The notes under the pieces: model-generated | Seen by the model: only the letters and a program-made list of their open reading frames with translations | Told to the model about the DNA's origin: nothing | Databases searched by the model: none | Assembly: GCF_012910885.1 (NCBI RefSeq) | Contig: NZ_WTVM01000002.1 | Coordinates: forward strand, 1 to 64,000 | From: Azoarcus taiwanensis | GTDB lineage: Bacteria > Pseudomonadota > Gammaproteobacteria > Burkholderiales > Rhodocyclaceae | DNA length: 64,000 bases | Direction of reading: 5' to 3' | Part shown: positions 59 through 27,929 of the stretch, piece by piece | Position numbering within the stretch: position 1 is the first letter of the stretch | Layout of the letters: every line of letters starts with the position of its first letter | Position numbers and translations under genes: made by a program

Positions 59-1495
59 CTAACTCACCTGGCTTGCGAGCTCGGCGCGCTTGAGTTTGCC
101 GGTGTCGGTGCGCGGAAAGGCGGCCACCAGATGGATCTCGCGAGGTCGCTGGTATGGCGGCAGGGCCTCTATTGCGTGTGTCGCGTCTCTCGACAGTTCT
201 GCTGTATCCCCCGATGCTGCGGGCACGATGAACAGATGCAGGCAAACCGGCTCTGAATCGTCCTTCCCGCGCCGCGGTACGACGCACAGCTCACCCAGAT
301 GCCCTTTCAAGACCTGCTGCAAGACATCCTCAACTGCGAGGATGTCCACCCAGCGTCCGAACACCTTGACCAGTTGGTCGGTGCGACCGGCGAAGAGCCA
401 GCCTTCAGCGTCATCCGCTTTTCGGAAAAGGTCTCCGGGTGAGAACCCGAAAGCGCCGAATCGGGCGCTGTCGTGCGTGACTGTGCGTGAGTAACCCAGT
501 GCGACTGCGGGGTGGTCGAACCACAAACGCAGCGTCTCGTTCCCGCAGTCGGTCGACGCCTCCTCGGTCACCCGCGTCAAAGGTGTGGCGCAGGCCGCAC
601 CCATCGATGGCGTTCGGTACAACATCAGACACAGGGTTTCGGTGGTGCCGTAGCCGTTGATGAGTTCCGCACCGGTATGGGCCATCCACGCCTGAGCCAG
701 GGCCGGCGGGCAGGCTTCGCCGGCTGAGACGGAGGCACGAAGCGGGCCTAAGCTCACGCCGGCTTCGAGTAAACGGCGCAGCAGCGTCGGCACGCTGAAG
801 AACAGCGTCGGCCGGTGTCGGGCAACGATCTCGGCGACCCGGCCAGGTTCCGGCCAGGCGAAGTCGAGTATTACGGTCGCGCCAAGGCGCAGCCCGGCGA
901 ACAAGGCGTTTGCAAGCGGGTATGCGAAGAACAGTTTCGAGGTCGAGTAGAAACGGTCGGTCGCATCCGCGCCAAGCAGGTTGCGGGCGAACACGTGTGC
1001 TTCGCAGATTGCGCGATGTGCGTGGACAACGCCCTTCGGTCTTCCTGTCGTGCCTGACGAATAGAGCATGAAGGCAGGCCAGTCCGGTTCTGCTGAGAAC
1101 GGTTCGGGCATATGCTGGCAGGCGGCGAGACGACGCTGCCAGTTCGAAAGCGCAATGGCGCCTGCGCCATGAGTCGCCGCGACCGCGTCTTCCAGCAGTA
1201 GTGTGGCCGCGCCGGAGTCGTCGATCAGCCCGTGGAACTGCTCGGCCGATGTGCGCGGGTTCACAATGATTGGCTGGCCGCCGGCCCACATCAGCCCGAT
1301 GAAGGCGATCGCCCAGTCGATGCCGTCGGGCAAAGCGATAACCACGCGTTCGCCAGGACGAACGCCGAGCGCCAGCCAGGCGCCGGCGCTGCGACGGCAA
1401 AGCGCGCGCAAATCCGCATAATCGATCTCACGGTCATTGTCGACCAGCGCGATCGCTTCAGGCCTGCCGCCCACGAGCAGTTCGGCCGCATTCAT
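59..1495 (-). CDS. Benzoate-CoA-ligase-type acyl/aryl-CoA synthetase
   Basis: AMP-forming ligase of 478 residues that should activate a carboxylic acid (probably aromatic) to its CoA thioester via an acyl-adenylate. The P-loop motif YSSGTTGRPKGV is present around residue 145, NGYGTTE (adenylate binding) near 280, the hinge region GRTDQLVKVFGRWVD near 370, and the C-terminal catalytic lysine motif TGKLKR near 470. Spacing and overall pattern fit the benzoate-CoA ligase family, but it is shorter than the usual ~520-530 residues, mostly at the N-terminus, where family members carry about 20 more residues before NAAE. The start has only a weak ribosome-binding site of its own and overlaps the stop of a short upstream ORF. 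It is divergent from a LysR gene that probably controls it. The substrate is not determined. Confidence 0.85.
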   Translation of the reverse strand: MNAAELLVGGRPEAIALVDNDREIDYADLRALCRRSAGAWLALGVRPGERVVIALPDGIDWAIAFIGLMWAGGQPIIVNPRTSAEQFHGLIDDSGAATLLLEDAVAATHGAGAIALSNWQRRLAACQHMPEPFSAEPDWPAFMLYSSGTTGRPKGVVHAHRAICEAHVFARNLLGADATDRFYSTSKLFFAYPLANALFAGLRLGATVILDFAWPEPGRVAEIVARHRPTLFFSVPTLLRRLLEAGVSLGPLRASVSAGEACPPALAQAWMAHTGAELINGYGTTETLCLMLYRTPSMGAACATPLTRVTEEASTDCGNETLRLWFDHPAVALGYSRTVTHDSARFGAFGFSPGDLFRKADDAEGWLFAGRTDQLVKVFGRWVDILAVEDVLQQVLKGHLGELCVVPRRGKDDSEPVCLHLFIVPAASGDTAELSRDATHAIEALPPYQRPREIHLVAAFPRTDTGKLKRAELASQVS

Positions 1496-1551
1496 TGGAC
1501 GGCACCGACCGGACGCGATGGCTGCGCCGGGTCTAGAATCAGAGTAGCCAC
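1492..1551 (-). CDS. 19-codon upstream ORF (leader peptide or displaced N-terminus of the CoA ligase)
   Basis: A GTG start at 1551 is preceded by a strong GGAGG at 1561-1565 with 9-nt spacing. It opens a 19-codon frame (VATLILDPAQPSRPVGAVQ) whose TGA overlaps the ATG of the CoA ligase as ATGA. The ligase itself lacks a good ribosome-binding site. Two readings are possible: a translationally coupled leader, or the true N-terminus of the ligase displaced by a one- or two-base indel near 1495, because family members have a similar-length extension just before the NAAE motif. Confidence 0.45.
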   Translation of the reverse strand: MATLILDPAQPSRPVGAVQ

Positions 1552-1668
1552 GCGATGTCTCCTCCGCTAAGGCCCCCTGTCAGGGATCTATAAGTATTTT
1601 TTGTTTCTGCTATTAGAGCCCCGCAAAATGGCCGGCACAATATCAATGATGCGATTAATATTATTTGG

Positions 1669-2619
1669 ATGCTTAATAACGTGAGTGTCCGGGGCTTTGA
1701 CCTAAACCTTCTGCGCGTGTTGCTCGCGGTCTACGACGCGCGCAGCGTCAGTCGCGCTGCCAGCATGCTCGGAGTCTCCCAGCCGACGGTCAGTGCTGCG
1801 CTCGGGCGTCTGCGCAAGACGTTCGATGAACCGCTATTCATCAAGACGTCCTCTGGCGTATCGCCGACCGCCCGTGCGCATGTGCTTGCGGCGGGAGCGC
1901 GCGAAGTGTTGCTGCGGGTCGAGAACGATCTCCTCGTCGAGGACGCCTTCGATCCGGGGAAGGTCACCGGGGAGTTCGTGTTCGCGCTGACCGATCTGGG
2001 CGAGATGGTCTTCCTGCCCAGATTGCTGGCTCACTTTCAGCGGCTTGCGCCGAAAGCCACGCTCCGATCGGTCGCGCCGGCCCCGGCCGGCATGATTCGC
2101 GCGATGGAGAGTGGGGACGTGGACCTTGCGATCGGCTACTTTCCCGATCTCGATGCGGCTGGCTGTTATCGGCAAAAGCTGCTGACACACCATTTTGTAT
2201 GTCTGCTTCGCGCTGATCATCCGATCACCGACAGTTCGCTGTCCTTAGCGCAGTTTCTGTCGCTGGGCCACGCGGTGGTGCGTGCGGATGGGCGCAGTCA
2301 GGAAGTGCTCGAAGCATACCTCGAGCGGCACAGGATCGAACGGCGTATCGTGTTGCGCACACCTCATTTCATGAGCTTGCCGATGATTATCGGACGTTCC
2401 GATCTGGTGGTGACACTGCCGCACGCTATAGGGCACTATTTCACGCACATAGGCGCAAATGTCAGGATGGCCCGTCCACCGCTTGCGATTCCTCGTATCG
2501 AGTTATATCAGCACTGGCACCGAAGCCATCACCACAGCGCAAGAAACCGCTGGCTCCGCCAGCAGGTTGCACAGCTGTTCTCAGCCGATACCGACGAATG
2601 GCCCTATCCGTTCAAATGA
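1669..2619 (+). CDS. LysR-family transcriptional regulator
   Basis: 316 residues, normal for a LysR activator. The N-terminal winged helix-turn-helix is clear (residues ~8-67: FDLNLLRVLLAVYDARSVSR, then AASMLGVSQPTVSAALGRLR), followed by a two-lobed periplasmic-binding-protein-like effector domain. It is divergent from the CoA ligase and 65 bases upstream of a TauE/SafE exporter gene, so either is a candidate target. The shared 173-bp intergenic region contains an AT-rich stretch (about 1585-1675) in which a LysR T-N11-A box would be expected. The start is uncertain: ATG at 1669 has no clear ribosome-binding site, and GTG at 1681 is an alternative. Confidence 0.85.
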   Translation: MLNNVSVRGFDLNLLRVLLAVYDARSVSRAASMLGVSQPTVSAALGRLRKTFDEPLFIKTSSGVSPTARAHVLAAGAREVLLRVENDLLVEDAFDPGKVTGEFVFALTDLGEMVFLPRLLAHFQRLAPKATLRSVAPAPAGMIRAMESGDVDLAIGYFPDLDAAGCYRQKLLTHHFVCLLRADHPITDSSLSLAQFLSLGHAVVRADGRSQEVLEAYLERHRIERRIVLRTPHFMSLPMIIGRSDLVVTLPHAIGHYFTHIGANVRMARPPLAIPRIELYQHWHRSHHHSARNRWLRQQVAQLFSADTDEWPYPFK

Positions 2620-2690
2620 GCTGGCGCTTGGCCGTTGGGGCCACTACTCCAGATCTTTACGCAGGAGGCTACTGGCTTTGAGGCATGGGG

Positions 2691-3449
2691 ATGCTTGACG
2701 AACTCGATGCGATGGGATGGGTTGTCACCGCGATTGCGGTGTTGATCACCGGCGTCTCGAAATCCAGCCTTGGCGGAGCGATGGGTGGGCTGGCGGTGCC
2801 CTTCATGGCGATCTGGTTGTCGCCGCGCGACGCGCTCGCGGTGGTGCTGCCAATCCTCATCGCGATGGACTTCGCCGGCATGCGTGCCTGGCGGGGCAAG
2901 GCGGCCTGGAACGAGCTCAAGCACCTGGTGCCGGCTTCCGTCGTGGGGATCGCCCTGGCTGCACTGCTGTTCGGTTTGATGTCCGATGCCTTCATCAAGG
3001 CCGGACTCGGCGTTATCGCGGTTGCGTTCGCAGCGGACCGGCTCATCCGTCGCAGTCGCCCCGAGGTCGGGCCGCGCGCCCTGTCTTGGCCGTGGGCCTG
3101 GCTGTGCGGGTCGGCCGCTGGGGTCACCAGTACCTTCGCGCATGCCGGTGGGCCACCGCTAATCATCTACTTGCTGGGTCGCGGGCTGCCCAGGCAGGTG
3201 TTTGTCGCGACATCGGTGTACTTCTTCACCGCGATCAATCTCGCCAAGGTCCCCTTTTACATCGGGCTCGACATGTTCTCGCGTGAGACGCTGTTGATGT
3301 CGGCCGTGTATCTGCCACTGGTACCGGTAGGCGTGTGGATCGGCACGCGGCTGCTCGCAATCATCTCGGAGCGGACTTTCTTCTATATCGCCACCGGGAT
3401 GCTCGGGCTTTCCGGCCTCAAGCTCTTGTGGGATGTGTTCGTAGTCTGA
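2691..3449 (+). CDS. TauE/SafE family membrane protein (anion/sulfonate exporter type)
   Basis: About 252 residues, very hydrophobic, with around eight predicted membrane helices arranged as two homologous halves, as in the TauE/SafE (DUF81) family. These proteins export small anions such as sulfite, sulfoacetate or other organic acids; the substrate here is unknown. Two Met codons lie six bases apart (2685 and 2691). A GAGG at 2680-2683 is 7 nt from 2691 and too close to 2685, so 2691 is preferred. An in-frame stop at 2679 rules out an earlier start. It follows the LysR gene on the same strand and may be part of the same function as the divergent CoA ligase. Confidence 0.8.
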   Translation: MLDELDAMGWVVTAIAVLITGVSKSSLGGAMGGLAVPFMAIWLSPRDALAVVLPILIAMDFAGMRAWRGKAAWNELKHLVPASVVGIALAALLFGLMSDAFIKAGLGVIAVAFAADRLIRRSRPEVGPRALSWPWAWLCGSAAGVTSTFAHAGGPPLIIYLLGRGLPRQVFVATSVYFFTAINLAKVPFYIGLDMFSRETLLMSAVYLPLVPVGVWIGTRLLAIISERTFFYIATGMLGLSGLKLLWDVFVV

Positions 3450-20755: not shown

Positions 20756-21160
20756 TCAGCGAATGCCAACCCGGCGCTGGTGCATGCGGATGTAGGCAGT
20801 GATGTGGGCCACCTGATCTGGTGTGAGCCCTTCGATCGGCGGCATGTCACCATACTGCCAGTGGTGGGCGCGAACGCCCTGGGCCACCGCCATCTGGAAC
20901 GCTGCGTCGCTGTGGTGTGACGGTTCGTAGATCTTGTGCAGCATGGGCGGCGCAACCTCGGTGCCGTTCAGGTCGGCGCCGTGACAGCTTGCGCAGTGAG
21001 TCTCATACAACGGCTGGCCAACGTTCGGATTCGGCATCAGGCCGGGAGTTGTTTCAGGGGGTGGCTGCCAGACTTGGGCAGCCACGCCGGTGGTCAGTGC
21101 GCCGAGCACGATGGCGAAGGCGGTTCGCAGGGTTTTTGGGCGGCGATGGGTGCGTTGCAT
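20756..21160 (-). CDS. Periplasmic monohaem cytochrome c
   Basis: 134 residues with a Sec signal peptide (TAFAIVLGALTTGVAA) and one haem-binding CASCH motif; the distal Met is probably that in GDMPPIEGL. AAGGA precedes the ATG. It is the last gene of a four-gene cluster with a CuA protein, an oxidase-like subunit I and a small membrane protein, so it most likely donates electrons to the CuA centre. Confidence 0.85.
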   Translation of the reverse strand: MQRTHRRPKTLRTAFAIVLGALTTGVAAQVWQPPPETTPGLMPNPNVGQPLYETHCASCHGADLNGTEVAPPMLHKIYEPSHHSDAAFQMAVAQGVRAHHWQYGDMPPIEGLTPDQVAHITAYIRMHQRRVGIR

Positions 21161-21178
21161 GAAGCGCGTCCTTCGGGG

Positions 21179-21385
21179 TTACGGTTTGTCTTGAGCGGTC
21201 GTAATGGATGGGGTCCGGGGTTTTCCCTGTGCAAGCAACACGGCCAGCCCGGCGAACAGCATCGAACCAACCCCCCACACCCACGCATAGCCGATCATGT
21301 CACCCCAGGGTGCGAGCGCGTAGGCCAGTGCGAGCAGTGCCCAAACGATCGCAATCGGCACGATGAGCCAGAAATCCTCGTTCAT
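21179..21385 (-). CDS. Small two-helix membrane protein of the oxidase cluster
   Basis: 68 residues with two hydrophobic helices (LIVPIAIVWALLALAYALA and a second around IGYAWVWGVGSMLFAGLAVL). A strong GAGGAGG ribosome-binding site is present. No family was recognised. Its position between subunit I and cytochrome c suggests an accessory or assembly subunit of the oxidase-like complex. Confidence 0.7.
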   Translation of the reverse strand: MNEDFWLIVPIAIVWALLALAYALAPWGDMIGYAWVWGVGSMLFAGLAVLLAQGKPRTPSITTAQDKP

Positions 21386-21413
21386 CAGTCGTTTCCTCCT
21401 CGATATTCGTACG

Positions 21414-23069
21414 TCAATGTCCGCCGCCGCCGGCCGCGGTCACCGGCAGGGCCTGCATCATCTCGAAGCCGATCGCCGTGAAGGCGTACATTGCGACCAC
21501 AATCACGAGCACCGAGACCGGACCGACCCAGGCCGTGAAGCCGGGTCTCACGGCGCTGCCCTGCCATGCCACGGTGAGATCGCGCAGTTCGCTTGCAGTG
21601 CGCCCGCGCGGCACCAGGGAGATCGCGACCCCGGCTGCGAACAACGCCAGCGCAGCCGCCATGATCGCGCCGCCGATGCCGACCGTGGCCATCAACCCTT
21701 GCCACAGGGCCGGGGCCTCGCTCCGGTAAGCCACGTCGATGACCCGACGAGGAACACCCAGATAGCCTGCGGCCACGCCGGCGGCACCAAAGACGAGCAG
21801 ACCGGCCAGCACGAGCCAGGGCATCCAGCGCATGAGCCCCGGTTGCCACATAGCCCGGCCGCCGATCGCGGGAAGCATCACGGCTAGTGCGGCCAGCAGC
21901 GTGAGGCTCACCGTGCCCACAGTGAAGAAGTGGAAGTAGCCGGGGACGAAGAAGGTGTCGGACAACAGCGGTGCGAGTTGCTCCTGGATCAGCACGAACG
22001 CGAACACGATGCCCAGGCCCATCGACAGCACCGCGACGCCGATCGCATTGGTCGCCGGGTGACGCCAGGGCAGCATCCGCATCCAGCCGAACAGGCCGCG
22101 TCCGCCCTGGGCGCGGGCGTGCAATTCAAGCGAGGCGACGATGATCAGAAATGCGGTCAGCGTCGGCACGCTGACGAACAGCGACAGCAGCGAGCCGGTC
22201 ACCCGCACCACGCCGGGCAGGTCCGGTTCGAGGAACATGTGGTACAGCGAGGTCGGCGGCACGAAGACCAGGTACATCGAGAACACGATCTTTGAGAAGC
22301 GATCGCCGAACACCGACTTGACGCCGGTGAGGTGGCGGACCAGCACGTACCACAGGATCACCGTGGCCATCAGTGGCAGGTAGTGCATGTTGTGGAACAC
22401 GATGTGCCAGTTGGTGCCGTGGTTGGCCGGCATTGCGCCCAGACCGAGCGCCCACAGCGTGCCGGGCAGGAAGGTGTAGAGCGCGGCGAATCCGGTCACG
22501 ACCAGGAAGCCGGCCCACGTGAAGAGCGCGAAGCCCACCCCGGTCAGGCGTTCCTGGCGGCCTGTGCGGCGCGGTTCGAGCAGGGTCGCGATCGCGCACG
22601 CTGGCACCACCATCAGGCCCAGCCCAAGCAGCAGGTAGCCGAGGTTGAACACCAGCAGTGCGTGCGGCGTCTGTGCGGCCATTGCAGGTGCGCCGTCGTA
22701 GAGCAGCGGCAGGCCCATGTGGGCGCCGCCCATGCTGAACACGAAGCCGGCGAGCATCAGGCCGAATCCGGTCCACGCCAGCCTGCGCCGCACCAGCCCG
22801 CCGCCGTTCTCGACCGCGCTGAAACCCAGGAGCAGGGCCGCCTGCGCGACAAACAGCCAGTAGAAGAAGATGCTCACCCCGTGCACGGTGAGGAAGCGGT
22901 ATCCCGTGTTGGGGATCATGTCGATGAGGCCGCCACGGGCAAGCGCGGTCAGCACGCCGCCGACAATGCCCAATGCCAGGGCGACCAGCGAGACGGCGCT
23001 CATCGCCACCAGCAGACGACGGTCCGAGGCGCCGAGCGCCGCAAAACGATCCCGATAATTGGTTTCCAT
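21414..23069 (-). CDS. Haem-copper-oxidase-like subunit I with an altered binuclear centre
   Basis: 551 residues and about 13 membrane helices, most like B-type (ba3) oxygen reductases; the segments GGRGLFGWMRMLPW and NVPRR-like GVPRRVIDVAY also match ba3. Low-spin haem ligands are kept (His63 in TVHGV and His380). CuB ligand His226 and the cross-link Tyr230 are kept (H-N-M-H-Y, spacing H-x3-Y), as is His277. But the HH pair reads Tyr276-His277, and the high-spin haem ligand in the VPGHFH motif reads VPGYFH, with Tyr378. So two core ligands are Tyr. It sits 2 bases after the CuA gene and has a GAGGTGG site. Oxygen or NO reduction cannot be assumed. Confidence 0.85.
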   Translation of the reverse strand: METNYRDRFAALGASDRRLLVAMSAVSLVALALGIVGGVLTALARGGLIDMIPNTGYRFLTVHGVSIFFYWLFVAQAALLLGFSAVENGGGLVRRRLAWTGFGLMLAGFVFSMGGAHMGLPLLYDGAPAMAAQTPHALLVFNLGYLLLGLGLMVVPACAIATLLEPRRTGRQERLTGVGFALFTWAGFLVVTGFAALYTFLPGTLWALGLGAMPANHGTNWHIVFHNMHYLPLMATVILWYVLVRHLTGVKSVFGDRFSKIVFSMYLVFVPPTSLYHMFLEPDLPGVVRVTGSLLSLFVSVPTLTAFLIIVASLELHARAQGGRGLFGWMRMLPWRHPATNAIGVAVLSMGLGIVFAFVLIQEQLAPLLSDTFFVPGYFHFFTVGTVSLTLLAALAVMLPAIGGRAMWQPGLMRWMPWLVLAGLLVFGAAGVAAGYLGVPRRVIDVAYRSEAPALWQGLMATVGIGGAIMAAALALFAAGVAISLVPRGRTASELRDLTVAWQGSAVRPGFTAWVGPVSVLVIVVAMYAFTAIGFEMMQALPVTAAGGGGH

Positions 23070-23071
23070 GT

Positions 23072-23767
23072 TCAGACCACCTCGATCGTTGCCTGCATCA
23101 CGTCGTGTGCAGGGCCGCAATAAATCGTGCAATACACGAGATAGCGGCCGGGTTCGTGGAAGGTGATGTCCATCTCGGTGACACGCCCCGGACGCAGCCG
23201 CACCATGCGTCCACCGCGCCCGAACTGGATCGACGCGCCGTGCGCGACGTCAAGCGCCATCATGCGAAAGCGGTAGGGTTGCCCGGCGTCGAGCCGCAGC
23301 GTGCCCGGCAGGTAGTACCACATGCCGGCGGCGAGATAGACGTCGATCGCTTCGTCGTCGTGCGCGTGGTCCGGGTCGTCCACTTCATGGGCGCCGTGAT
23401 CCATCGCGCCGTGGTCCATCGCGCCGTGCCCGTCGTCATGTTCCAGCGTTCGGGCGAGGACGCGCGGATGGACTGTGCCATCGGGCAACCGGTAGCGCTC
23501 GATGAACTCGGCGGTCATCCGGTTGAATTCTTCGGCGCTCGGGCCGTCGTGGGCAGCACCGTGCCCGCCATGTCCGCCGCCATGTCCGGCGGCGTGTCCG
23601 GCGGCGTGTCCGGCGGCGCCATGATCGTCACCGTGGCCCAGGCCCAGCAGTGCGAGCGGAGTCGGAGCCGCGCCGTAGGCGGCCCACAAGCCGTACAGCG
23701 AGACGCCGCCGAAACCCATCGCGGTGATGAACCCCCGCCTTGTCGTGAAATGTGATTTTTCTGCCAT
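23072..23767 (-). CDS. CuA-containing subunit-II-like cupredoxin with a Tat signal
   Basis: 231 residues. The N-terminus TTRRGFITAMG is a twin-arginine signal (Arg10-Arg11). A long His-rich stretch (residues 45-140, many GHG and MDHG units) may bind copper. The C-terminal cupredoxin holds a full CuA set: His176, then Cys213-x3-Cys217-x3-His221-x2-Met224 (CTIYCGPAHDVM). It should pass electrons from cytochrome c to subunit I, whose ATG follows by two bases. Start 23767 has AGGGA upstream. A Tat rather than Sec signal suggests export after cofactor loading or as an anchored, folded protein. Confidence 0.88.
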   Translation of the reverse strand: MAEKSHFTTRRGFITAMGFGGVSLYGLWAAYGAAPTPLALLGLGHGDDHGAAGHAAGHAAGHGGGHGGHGAAHDGPSAEEFNRMTAEFIERYRLPDGTVHPRVLARTLEHDDGHGAMDHGAMDHGAHEVDDPDHAHDDEAIDVYLAAGMWYYLPGTLRLDAGQPYRFRMMALDVAHGASIQFGRGGRMVRLRPGRVTEMDITFHEPGRYLVYCTIYCGPAHDVMQATIEVV

Positions 23768-24025: not shown

Positions 24026-24994
24026 TCAACGAGTAACCTCCAACCTCGCCCGGCGCAGCAGCAGCGAGTTGCCGATCACCGACAGCGAACTCGCGGTCAT
24101 CGCGACGACACCGATCATCGCGTCGCCCGGGCCTTTCTCGACCGGAACCGACTCGCCGGTCGCGATCGATTCGTCGACATGGCTCGTGCCGTCGACAATC
24201 TCTCCGTCGGTCGGCACCTTGGCCCCGGGGCGAACGACCATCACGTCGCCGACCGCAAGCTCGGCCACGGGCACTTCGACCTCGTGGCCGTCGCGCAGCA
24301 CCGTCGCGGTCTTCGCGCCGAGTGTGACGAGGTTTCGGATCGCCTGCGACGCGCGTCCTTTTGCCCGCGTTTCAAGGTAGCGGCCGAGCAGGTGGAAGGT
24401 CATGATGGTCGCGGCCATCTCGATGAAGGACGTCATCGGGTAAATGAAACCGATGAGCCCGATCACATAGGGCGGGATACTGCCCAGCGAGATCAGCACG
24501 TCCATGTTGGCGGTGCGGTTCTTCAGCGAACGCCAGGCGGACTGATGCGTCGCCCATCCGCCATTGGTGAACACCACCGGAAACGCGAATACCGCGACGA
24601 TGGCGAGATAGCCGGGCACCGGCTGCCAGAACATGTGCGGCACCATCAGCAACATGATCAGCGTGGCCGGCACGGCGGCAATCCATAGCCGCTTCTGCGC
24701 CAGCGCCAGATAGCGCTCCTCGGAGTCGGTCGCCTGCTGTTCGCTCGGGGGGCTCTCGAGATCGACGCTGTCGACGTCGTAGCCAGCACGTTCGATCGCG
24801 GCACGGATCGCGTCCGGCTGTGTGCGCGCCGCGTCGAAGCGCACCGTGACGCGGTGGTTGGCGATATTGGTCTCGACCCCTTCGATACCGTCCACCCTGC
24901 GGATAGAAGTCGATACCAGGCCCGCACAGTGGTTGCTGCTCATGCCGGGCACGGTCAAGAGAACCGTATTCGATGCTGTGGCTGGGGTGTTCAT
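24026..24994 (-). pseudogene. Internally deleted copper-type P1B ATPase
   Basis: 322 residues against the usual ~750-830. Present: an N-terminal heavy-metal domain with an atypical GMSSNHC motif (one Cys), the first four membrane helices, and the actuator domain with TGES. After EKGPGDAMIG the sequence jumps in frame to VAMTASSLSVIGNSLLLRR, which is the extreme C-terminal helix of such pumps. The CPC membrane motif, the phosphorylated DKTGT and the nucleotide-binding domain are missing. It cannot hydrolyse ATP. The start has AGGGG upstream. It lies between two copper-handling units with a shared operator type upstream. Confidence 0.85.
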
Positions 24995-25064
24995 GGACTG
25001 ACCCCTCGCGTTCCTCATGGCTACAGCATGGTCGAGGGCGGCTTTCCGAACGATTGCCCCGGGA

Positions 25065-25213: not shown

Positions 25214-25690
25214 TCAGCGGGCGGGCGACTGCGATTGCATTCTCTGCTCCAATGCCTCCATGCGCTTTTCCATCATCTCCATCCGTTGATGCATGGCTTC
25301 AGGGCCACCGCCTTTCATGCCCCCTTGCATCCCCATCATGCCTTGCATGCCACCTCGCATCATGCCCGGTCCCATCGGCATGTCGCCGGACATCATCGGG
25401 CAATCTGCCGGCATGGCCTGCATCATGCCTTCCATGTCGGCCATCTGTTCTTCCATGAGTTTCATGCGCTCGGCCGGGTCCTGCATCTGCCGCATTCGCT
25501 GCATGCGCTCCTGCATCGCCGAGATGCGGGCAGCGGGGGTGGCGCCTGGCGTGGCTTCGGCGCTTACGGCTTCGGCCGGGTGGTGGGCCGCATGGTCGTC
25601 CTGCTGTGCGAACGAGGCGCCAATGAGCAAGCTGCCGCCGAGCAAGGCGGCGAGGATCAGCGGTGTGCGATTGCGAGTGAGGGTTTTCAT
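25214..25690 (-). CDS. Met/His-rich periplasmic protein, probable copper-binding
   Basis: 158 residues. A Sec signal peptide (PLILAALLGGSLLIGASFA) is followed by DDHAAHH and then a long segment extremely rich in Met (MMSGDMPMGPGMMRGGMQ and similar) ending in charged coiled-coil-like repeats (HQRMEMMEKRMEALEQRM). Clusters of Met are typical Cu(I) ligands in the oxidising periplasm. It is divergent from cusR across a 164-bp region holding a putative CusR operator. No catalytic family was recognised. Confidence 0.75.
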   Translation of the reverse strand: MKTLTRNRTPLILAALLGGSLLIGASFAQQDDHAAHHPAEAVSAEATPGATPAARISAMQERMQRMRQMQDPAERMKLMEEQMADMEGMMQAMPADCPMMSGDMPMGPGMMRGGMQGMMGMQGGMKGGGPEAMHQRMEMMEKRMEALEQRMQSQSPAR

Positions 25691-25854: not shown

Positions 25855-26535
25855 ATGAAGATCCTGATCGTCGAAGACGAACCGAAGACCGGGGACTACC
25901 TGCGCCAGGGGCTGGGCGAGGCGGGTTTCGTCGTCGATCTGGCGCGAGAGGGTATTGACGGCATGCATCTCGCGCTCACCGGCGAGTATGACTTGCTGGT
26001 GCTCGATGTCATGCTGCCCGGCGTCGATGGCTGGACCATTCTGCAGGCGGTGCGCCGCGCGGGGGGCGAGATGCCGGTGTTGTTCCTGACCGCGCGTGAT
26101 GCGGTCGAGGACCGGGTGCGGGGGCTGGAGCTTGGCGCCGACGACTACCTCGTCAAGCCCTTTGCCTTTTCGGAACTGCTCGCCCGAGTGCGCACGCTGT
26201 TGCGCCGGGGCAAGAACAAGGAGCCCGAGGTGTTGCGTGCGGCCGATCTGGAGCTCGATCTGATGCGGCGACGGGTCACCCGCGGTGGCTCGCGGATCGA
26301 CCTTACCGCCAAGGAGTTTGGTCTGCTCGAACTGTTGCTGCGGCGACAGGGCGAAGTCTTGCCGCGCTCGCTGATCGCCTCGCAGGTGTGGGACATGAAT
26401 TTCGACAGCGACACCAACGTGATCGAGGTCGCGGTGCGTCGTCTGCGCGCCAAGGTGGATGACCCGTTCGAGCCCAAGCTCATCCGGACGGTGCGCGGTA
26501 TGGGCTATGTGCTCGAGGCAGACGAGCAGGCATGA
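25855..26535 (+). CDS. CusR/CopR-like OmpR-family response regulator
   Basis: 226 residues. Receiver domain with the acidic pocket ([11 protein letters not shown]) and phospho-acceptor Asp in [10 protein letters not shown] (about residue 51), Lys in [16 protein letters not shown]; then an OmpR-type winged helix ([12 protein letters not shown]-like segment and [14 protein letters not shown]). The KTGDYL and [16 protein letters not shown] segments are typical of the CusR/CopR heavy-metal group. Its stop overlaps the kinase start. Likely targets are the TTAC-N6-GTAA sites found upstream of its own gene and neighbouring copper genes. Confidence 0.88.
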
Positions 26536-27929
26536 GTGCCCCGTCATTCGGCGCAGTGTCGCTGACCACCCGCCTCGCCGCCCTCTTCGCGGCGACGACG
26601 AGCGTGCTGCTGATCCTGGTTGGCATCGCGGTAGACCGCGCGGTGTCGGCGCATTTCGACGATCTCGATCAGCATGATCTCGCGGCCAAGCTTGTCGCAA
26701 TCGAGACCTTGCTCGCGACCACTACGTCCGATGACGCGCTCGCGGCGCTACCGGGCAGACTGGACGACGCGTTGGCTGGCCATGAATCCGTTGCGCTGCG
26801 TCTCAGCATTCCGGCGCGTGGCTGGCAGCATGCGGTACTCGAAGATCGCTTCGACCCCCAAGCGCCATTGTCGCCGGGTCTGCGGGGCGCTGTGACGAAA
26901 TGGCAGGACAACCACGGCACGCCATTCATCGGCAAGGCGGCGACGATTCCGGTGAACCTGTCCGAAACTGTCGCTGCCGAGGTCATGCTTGGGCTGGATA
27001 CCTCCCATCATGCGCACTTTCTGCGGACGATGCGGCTTCAGCTGGGTTTCGGCATTTCGGTAGCGGCGTTGCTCGCGGCGATGTTTGGATGGCTGGCTGC
27101 CAGCAAGGGACTCGCCCCGATGCGTCGGGTGACCGCCACGGCCAGTCGGTTATCGGCAGAACGCCTTGGTGAGCGGCTGTCCGAGCGGGATGCGCCCGCC
27201 GAGATGCGGGAACTGGTCGAAGCCTTCAACGGCATGCTCGCACGCCTGGAAGCCTCGTTTCGAAGGCTGAGCGAGTTCTCGGCCGACATCGCCCACGAGC
27301 TGCGCACTCCAGTGTCCAACCTGATGACTGAAACCCAGGTCGCTCTGTCACGCAGCCGCAGTGCCGACGAGTATCGCGAGGTGCTGCATTCCAACCTGGA
27401 GGAGTTCGACCGGCTCGCCCGGATGATCGCCGACATGCTGTTTCTCGCCAAGGCCGACAATGGACTGCTACCCAAGCCGGCCGAACGGATCGCCCTCGAA
27501 GCTGAAGCGGCCGCATTGCTCGAGTTCTACGAGGCGCTTGCGGATGAGAAAGGCATCCGGATGGAGTTTACCGGGGCCGGCGAGGTTGTCGGCGATCGGC
27601 TGATGCTGCGCCGCGCCTTGTCCAATCTCCTGTCGAACGCGATCCGCCATACGCCGCAGGGTGAAACCATCGCGGTCGGGGTTCACAGAGAAGGCGACCA
27701 AATCCTGCTGACAGTCAGCAATCCTGGCGAACCGATTCCGCCGGATCAGGTAGCGCAGGTCTTCGAACGGTTTCACCGGGCTGACCTGTCACGTTCCCGT
27801 CATAGCGACGGTTCGGGACTTGGGCTGTCGATCACGCGCTCCATCGTCGAGGCGCACGGTGGCCGCATCGAGCTCGAATCGAACGCAACGAGGACGATCT
27901 TCACTATCGCCCTTCCCGAAGACCGCTAA
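26532..27929 (+). CDS. CusS-like heavy-metal sensor histidine kinase
   Basis: 465 residues. Two membrane helices (~18-40 and ~165-190) frame a periplasmic sensor, then HAMP, a dimerisation domain with the phospho-acceptor His in [16 protein letters not shown], and an ATPase domain ([18 protein letters not shown]). The ATG overlaps the cusR stop (ATGA). In this group the periplasmic domain senses Cu or Ag; the metal here is inferred from the surrounding copper genes. Its 3' end overlaps the convergent araC gene by 26 bases. Confidence 0.88.

Follow-up and report, generated by a model that had tools for sequence, protein, structure and literature searches.

The window analyzed here is a 64,000-nucleotide stretch of Azoarcus taiwanensis DNA (contig NZ_WTVM01000002.1). 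It encodes a complex that resembles the haem-copper oxidases, except that two of the ligands that define the catalytic centre of this superfamily have become tyrosines. Haem-copper enzymes are usually defined by their haem/CuB centre. Both ligands are changed throughout the rows that we read, and the family is real, conserved, and unusual. The conserved unit consists of three genes, all on the reverse strand: subunit II (23072..23767), subunit I (21414..23069), and a small subunit (21179..21385).

Subunit I (551 amino acids) matches PF00115, the COX1 fold, at 7e-35 and reaches 38 bits with the NCBIfam oxidase model, whose cut-off is 671; it thus belongs to the fold clearly, if remotely. An AlphaFold2 model of it (mean predicted local distance difference test score, or pLDDT, of 80.2; predicted template modelling score, or pTM, of 0.85) aligns to the structure 7deg with a Z score of 35.3 (root-mean-square deviation 2.6 over 475 residues) and to the ba3 oxidase 1EHK with a Z score of 34.8 (24% identity). 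Annotators should be warned that generic models detect this protein as a mere oxidase subunit I.

A sequence-only reading of this DNA had named H63, H226, Y230, Y276-H277, Y378, and H380 as the key residues. On checking the translation, we found these residues and their numbering to be exact, and both tyrosine codons are TAC (22242-22244 for Tyr276 and 21936-21938 for Tyr378). By homology, His63 (22881..22883) is a ligand of the low-spin haem. The motif H226-N-M-H229-Y230 (22380..22394) keeps one CuB histidine (H226) and the tyrosine (Y230) and adds a new invariant histidine on the CuB side, H229, which is Val in A and B types and Gln in eNOR. Tyr276-His277 (22239..22244) occupies the position of the CuB His-His pair. 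In Tyr378-Phe379-His380 (21930..21938), the tyrosine takes the position of the high-spin haem's histidine and the low-spin haem's histidine is kept. When subunit I is aligned to ba3 oxidase, Y276 falls on the leading His of the HH pair and Y378 on that of HFH, which agrees with the claim that two core ligand positions hold tyrosine, and no other His aligns at either position. We take the ba3 counterparts of Y276 and Y378 to be His282 and His384. Excerpts from PMC3141039 describe His384 of ba3 as the proximal ligand.

Subunit II is a cupredoxin with a CuA centre, a twin-arginine-like N-terminus (TTRRGFI), a linker rich in His and Met, and, in the window copy, two MDHG motifs. As had been claimed from the sequence, its set of CuA ligands is complete: the motif C-x3-C-x3-H-x2-M appears as C-T-I-Y-C-G-P-A-H-D-V-M at residues 213-224 (23096..23131). 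The CuA motif is present at 54 of 55 loci (the window, 52 other loci, and two plasmids); the other, L056, has little upstream DNA. The twin-arginine-like pattern RRxF is found in 48 of 54 subunit II open reading frames (ORFs) from the clade, searched anywhere in the ORF, and in 1 of 27 comparison ORFs, searched in the first 80 residues. The linker between the membrane anchor and the CuA domain has a median of 12% His plus Met and reaches 26% (48 measured). MDHG occurs in 8 of the 54 subunit II ORFs, and two or more times in 6 of them, the window's included.

The small subunit has 68 amino acids and two hydrophobic stretches, as judged by eye. Its homologs (tblastn, E 0.01) are found at 52 of 55 clade loci and at none of 20 comparison loci, and it has no match in Pfam or NCBIfam. 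In six loci from uncultured gammaproteobacteria (L054, L055, L057, L058, L060, and L061), the small subunit has about double this length (126-140 amino acids with our chosen starts); by eye, the one in L054 looks like a tandem duplication of a two-helix unit.

The window also encodes a secreted monohaem cytochrome c (20756..21160, reverse strand), which is a possible redox partner and lies outside the conserved unit. Of the 48 loci with sufficient sequence, just 2 (the window and L031) have a cytochrome-c-like ORF on the same strand no more than 1.5 kb behind subunit I, and 1 of 47 loci (L049) has one ahead of subunit II; we separated such ORFs from chance occurrences of CxxCH by eye. Hence the tidy four-gene operon that had been described holds for three genes, but not for the cytochrome c.

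A rare clade with two tyrosines

To find relatives, we scanned a collection of species genomes once, with an alignment of three sequences and the patterns [VL]FHNMHY and HGV[SN]IFFY, which cover the HNMHY and H63 regions and include neither Tyr276 nor Tyr378. This gave 52 loci (20 betaproteobacterial, 19 alphaproteobacterial, 11 gammaproteobacterial, and 2 unassigned). In an alignment of the window with these 52 loci, Y276, H277, H226, H229, and Y230 are each present in 53 of 53 rows, and H63, Y378, and H380 are each present in all 51 rows that cover them. H222 is conserved in 49 of the 53 rows and is Ser in the other four. Two copies on Azospirillum plasmids carry the same residues. Conservation of both tyrosines across Alpha-, Beta-, and Gammaproteobacteria bears out the earlier view that the gene is not decaying, and we are almost certain that this is a functional, conserved clade. 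A sequencing error, a pseudogene, or an isolated mutation is ruled out for practical purposes: Tyr276 is common to all the rows, and we found nothing in favor of such an explanation.

At the C terminus of subunit I, H551 (21417-21419) is His in 50 of the 50 rows that reach it; in the window copy, a Gly-rich tail precedes it.

The clade is rare. Among 101 related genomes (its own included), 21 have a match. Close homologs are found in two of these besides the window's own genome (76% and 57% identity), and both tyrosines are present in each; the remaining matches (23-29% identity) are eNOR-like, reading HSSQQ wherever they include that region. Among 398 sampled genomes from the phylum, the best match outside the window's genome had 176 bits, as compared to 929, and in a sample of 369 genomes from the class we found nothing beyond the window's genome at E 1e-60. 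We saw no intermediates with a single tyrosine among the non-clade loci whose motifs we read; weaker matches without a locus were left unread.

We built a phylogenetic tree from 57 rows. Of the 49 clade rows that we used for comparing active sites, 27 are in it, along with 19 eNOR-type, 8 B-type, and 2 A-type rows and one row from a Thermus plasmid (L115). The eNOR type is the one NO reductase family that the tree covers, as sNOR, gNOR, cNOR, and qNOR rows were not included. The clade forms a single branch with 100/100 support, whose stem measures 2.72 changes per column, so the proteins with the same two tyrosines do form a clade, as the sequence-only reading had asked. Nearly all of its members share the CuA subunit and the small subunit as neighbors. 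The eNOR rows are the next nearest group (joint node 99/96), and the clade does not lie inside them. We are not sure of the exact sister group because the tree program warns of long branches.

The residues agree with the tree. The two histidines of the low-spin haem, which the haem-copper superfamily requires, are present. The proximal His of the high-spin haem, which is a hallmark of the superfamily, is replaced by Tyr378, and one of the three His of the CuB or FeB site is replaced by Y276; H229 may compensate for this His. The His-x3-Tyr pair of the B type on helix VI is retained as H226 and Y230. At position 230, the Gln, Asn, Asp, or Glu typical of nitric oxide (NO) reductases is absent. 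According to excerpts from PMC8756737, NO reductases carry E, N, Q, or D at the position of Tyr230.

As compared to ba3 oxidase, the predicted fold of subunit I, the CuA subunit II, the ligands of the low-spin haem, H226, and Y230 are alike. On the other hand, the clade has Tyr for the high-spin haem's His and for one CuB His, H229 for Val, changes in the haem a3 pocket, the O2 channel, and the K-path, a twin-arginine-like subunit II, and a small subunit without a named family. The eNOR enzymes, which are NO reductases related to the B family, are a neighboring group in the tree, and their loci also contain CuA-type subunit II ORFs. However, the 19 eNOR-type rows have Gln at both 229 and 230, a His-His pair, and His before Phe-His; the matching motifs of the clade are HNMHY (in a few rows HNLHY), Tyr-His, and Tyr-Phe-His. 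Based on the residues and the tree, we ruled out membership in either eNOR or ba3.

The high-spin haem pocket

To compare active sites, we used 49 clade rows and 29 reference rows (19 eNOR-type, 8 B-type, and 2 A-type). The 49 rows are a 47-row alignment plus L080 and L081. Six loci were left out of the 47-row alignment as truncated, frameshifted, or with an odd start (L044, L064, L065, L066, L069, and L070). We dropped two oxidases from the window's own genome (L077 and L078) from the comparisons, and the Thermus row (L115) is not among the 29 references.

Twenty-seven columns are nearly invariant in all three reference groups. The clade keeps 16 of them and changes 11. The residues around the low-spin haem (H63, F379, H380, R441, and R442) are each kept in 49 of 49 rows. 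Excerpts from PMC3141039 place two arginines of ba3 at the propionates of haem b. The earlier suggestion that electrons can still enter the complex therefore stands, as the CuA and low-spin haem residues are kept.

Five of the 11 changed columns sit at the high-spin haem/CuB centre: 354, 357, S370, Y378, and Y276. The last three are invariant in the clade (49/49) and all three are His in the references; at column 354, Gly becomes Ile or Leu in 30 of 49 rows, and at column 357, Gly becomes Ala or Ser in all 49. Outside the 27 columns, all 49 rows have A366 where the references have Asp or Asn. Going by the bovine and ba3 structures, we take the changed positions (the propionate partners S370 and A366, and helix IX) to be contacts of the high-spin haem. 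The other six changed columns are 119, 127, 129, 176, 177, and 396, of which 127 and 129 belong to a YPP loop.

Residues 354-361 of helix IX (21987..22010) have a face that, we presume, packs on the high-spin haem in the relatives. We ranked 373 helix faces (i, i+3, i+4, i+7) by their gain in side-chain volume, and the face 354/357/358/361 has the largest gain of all. Random four-column sets reach its mean gain with P = 0.00175, which is not a blind result because we had already viewed the helix IX residues before the test. Column 361 is Ile in 49 of 49 rows and a small residue in eNOR and A types.

Positions in the K-path and the O2 channel have changed as well. The threonines of the B-type K-path at 306 and 309, which we equate with Thr312 and Thr315 of ba3, are absent: the 49 rows have Ala or Val at the first and Ile, Val, or Leu at the second, versus Thr in 8 of 8 B-type rows. 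The residue before H226 is Phe (F225) in 49 of 49 rows, and in the references it is Gly (22/29), Leu (5), or Ala (2). F225 matches Gly232 of ba3, which lies in the O2 channel, and Val at the matching Gly of the Rhodobacter enzyme strongly inhibits the access of O2, according to excerpts from PMC3141039.

From these changes we infer that the high-spin haem has probably been lost rather than ligated by tyrosine. Its loss is the better fit because the propionate partners and the helix IX glycines around that haem have changed too. The residues also suggest that a metal site has been rebuilt from H226, H229, and H277, together with Y276, Y230, and perhaps Y378.

In the main rival to this reading, the high-spin haem is kept with Tyr378 as its ligand, perhaps with His229 opposite, and the complex might handle peroxide or NO or merely transfer electrons. 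This was close to the original proposal, which had Tyr378 as the axial ligand of a retained haem. Tyr378 and His229 are invariant, they align with the axial ligand and with the Val adjacent to the active site of relatives, and haems with a Tyr ligand exist in other folds (catalase, with Tyr, and the haemophore HasA, with His and Tyr). Also, 19 of 49 rows retain Gly at 354, which counts against haem loss. But with D/N366 and H370 gone, helix IX filled, and F225 in the O2 channel, we consider a Tyr-ligated haem to be unlikely.

Copper genes near the unit

Upstream of the unit, the window encodes the remnant of a copper ATPase, a secreted protein rich in Met and His, and a pair of signalling proteins. 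The P-type ATPase gene (24026..25018, reverse strand) is shortened in frame: a metal-binding domain and part of the A domain are joined to a short C-terminal end, and the P and N domains are missing. The motif DKTGT is found neither in this gene nor elsewhere in the window. The shortened gene may be a real remnant or an assembly collapse. The Met/His-rich protein (25214..25690, reverse strand) has no Pfam match above the cut-off; proteins that resemble it by eye adjoin the clade member in L003. On the forward strand are an OmpR-type response regulator (25855..26535; CusR-like by eye) and its partner, a CusS-type heavy-metal sensor kinase (26532..27929; TIGR01386, 488 bits with a cut-off of 293).

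Similar genes recur near other members of the clade. Across 53 loci, we found copper P-type ATPases at 15, OmpR-type regulators at 13, CusS-type kinases at 12, ICMT-like proteins at 11, DUF411 at 10, RND pump genes at 6, F510_1955 proteins at 5, CusF at 4, and cupredoxins at 3. Three loci (L046-L048) contain a multicopper oxidase (186 bits, under the cut-off of TIGR01480). These labels come from a Pfam and NCBIfam scan of 18 of the 160 non-core neighbor clusters; the others were assessed, if at all, by eye. The RND pump, CusF, DUF411, copper ATPase, and multicopper oxidase labels each rest on one scanned representative, and CusS on two; CusR, CusA, CusB, and CusC were labeled by eye. Of the roles that had been proposed, the neighborhood favors copper or redox. 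No genes linked to NO or peroxide were found among the 18 of 160 clusters that were scanned.

We also used tblastn to search for copper markers (efflux, chaperone, and oxidase) and found them at 24 of 55 clade loci. Considering the clade loci of at least 17 kb, 21 of 35 have a marker, as compared to 3 of 20 comparison loci of 20 kb each (19 eNOR-type and 1 B-type; P = 0.0017, Fisher's exact test), which is support for an association with copper rather than proof, because the loci are related and the probes were taken from clade loci.

Finally, we considered the multicopper oxidases of whole genomes. Scores over the cut-off of TIGR01480 (CopA) are found in 1 of 29 clade genomes and in 8 of 101 relatives, and any multicopper-oxidase-like match in 23 of 29 and 55 of 101.

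Possible functions

The complex is likely not a reductase of O2 or NO, and the sequence-only reading was right that this is a divergent haem-copper-type complex and probably not a standard oxygen reductase. Our overall reading, to which we give a probability of roughly 0.4, is that it is a complex of CuA, haem b, and copper, without the O2-reducing haem, that would oxidise periplasmic Cu(I) and feed the electrons into the respiratory chain. It would be a membrane redox complex on the scaffold of a B-type-like haem-copper oxidase from which the high-spin haem has been lost. In place of the haem-CuB pair, H226, H229, Y230, Y276, H277, and Y378 would hold a copper ion in a His/Tyr-type site. The His/Met-rich linker of subunit II perhaps gathers periplasmic Cu(I), and electrons from Cu(I) would pass via the low-spin haem and CuA to cytochrome c. 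Toxic Cu(I) would thus become Cu(II) without an oxygen-dependent multicopper oxidase, which would contribute to copper tolerance.

We suggest only tentatively that Cu(I) oxidation is the main task of the complex, although it is the likeliest of the roles considered. We also speculate, with considerable doubt, that the complex belongs to a respiratory class of its own and acts as a Cu(I):cytochrome c oxidoreductase, in which an oxidase scaffold has given up the O2-reducing haem, the CuB pocket has become a site for copper as the substrate, and detoxification does not need oxygen.

Several observations weigh against our overall reading. Part of the residue change is general divergence, because of the six changed columns beyond the five at the high-spin haem/CuB centre, we place just 127 and 129 at the high-spin pocket. 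Individual changes have precedents in B-type rows (5 of 8 have Met at 361, and 5 of 8 have Leu at the position of F225), and the K-path positions S296, T303, and Y241 remain polar. The structure model has pLDDT of just 57-78 at residues 211-330, and we used it for the fold alone, so the geometry of the pocket rests on the alignment. Of the 54 subunit II ORFs, 46 lack MDHG. In an uncultured gammaproteobacterial group (L054-L061), five of the six measured linkers have just 5-6% His plus Met. Because these linkers are poor in His and Met and 14 of the 35 long loci have no copper marker, copper might not be the substrate everywhere. Also, most clade genomes would not need a substitute for a multicopper oxidase, because 23 of 29 have a multicopper-oxidase-like match.

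The closest functional parallel that we propose is to the multicopper oxidases CopA and CueO. CopA is exported by the twin-arginine system and has Met/His repeats. The likeness extends to location in copper islands. However, these enzymes have another fold, and the clade encodes a membrane haem complex with a CuA centre. The Gig system of Cupriavidus metallidurans is a parallel of idea alone: excerpts from PMC10304878 suggest that Cu(I) is oxidised in the periplasm and its electron enters the quinol pool, mention that low oxygen may impair the oxidase CopA, and describe GigT as loosely related to DoxX.

Electrons might also run the other way, entering from cytochrome c and passing CuA and the low-spin haem to reduce Cu(II) at the rebuilt site, and CusF, an RND pump, or the P-type ATPase would then capture the Cu(I). 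The same anatomy would fit, and copper-export genes and CusF do recur beside the unit. However, reducing periplasmic copper would raise its toxicity, and the islands in L046-L048 also contain a relative of the copper-resistance multicopper oxidases, which would work in the opposite direction. We think that Cu(II) reduction is quite unlikely.

A role as a copper or redox sensor or as an assembly factor, with no turnover, seems improbable. Response regulators (13/53 loci) and CusS-type kinases (12/53) are encoded nearby on the opposite strand, but complete residue sets for CuA and the low-spin haem, along with a third subunit that is conserved, would be a high price for sensing alone, and CusS has its own sensor domain.

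It is very improbable that the complex is an ordinary reductase of oxygen or NO whose ligands happen to be unusual. By sequence, the ba3 oxidases are the nearest solved structures, and part of the K-path is kept, as is Tyr230, which corresponds to the crosslinking Tyr of oxygen reductases. But Tyr occupies the position of the high-spin haem's His in all 51 rows, F225 and the two K-path changes are present, and position 230 lacks the E, N, Q, or D of NO reductases.

Whatever the substrate, this conserved branch combines the fold, CuA, and low-spin haem residues with what looks like a dismantled catalytic haem site, which would show that such a scaffold is open to reuse in other chemistry. If the copper role is true, it would tie copper detoxification straight into electron transport, perhaps with no need for oxygen. 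We found no description of such a family in the titles and the starts of abstracts of the best-ranked papers (2-20 per search) in the open PMC literature; it might have been mentioned elsewhere.

Another unusual subunit I, which is eNOR-like (HGAQQ, with a His-His pair), is encoded on Thermus thermophilus plasmids L115, L138, L139, and L140, with coding sequences at about 1327-3012. In the four that we read, of 10 records matched, Lys replaces the low-spin haem's His at the position of H380 (VVGHFK). These proteins are annotated as ba3- or cbb3-type oxidases, and the gene adjoins a regulator of the Rrf2 family.

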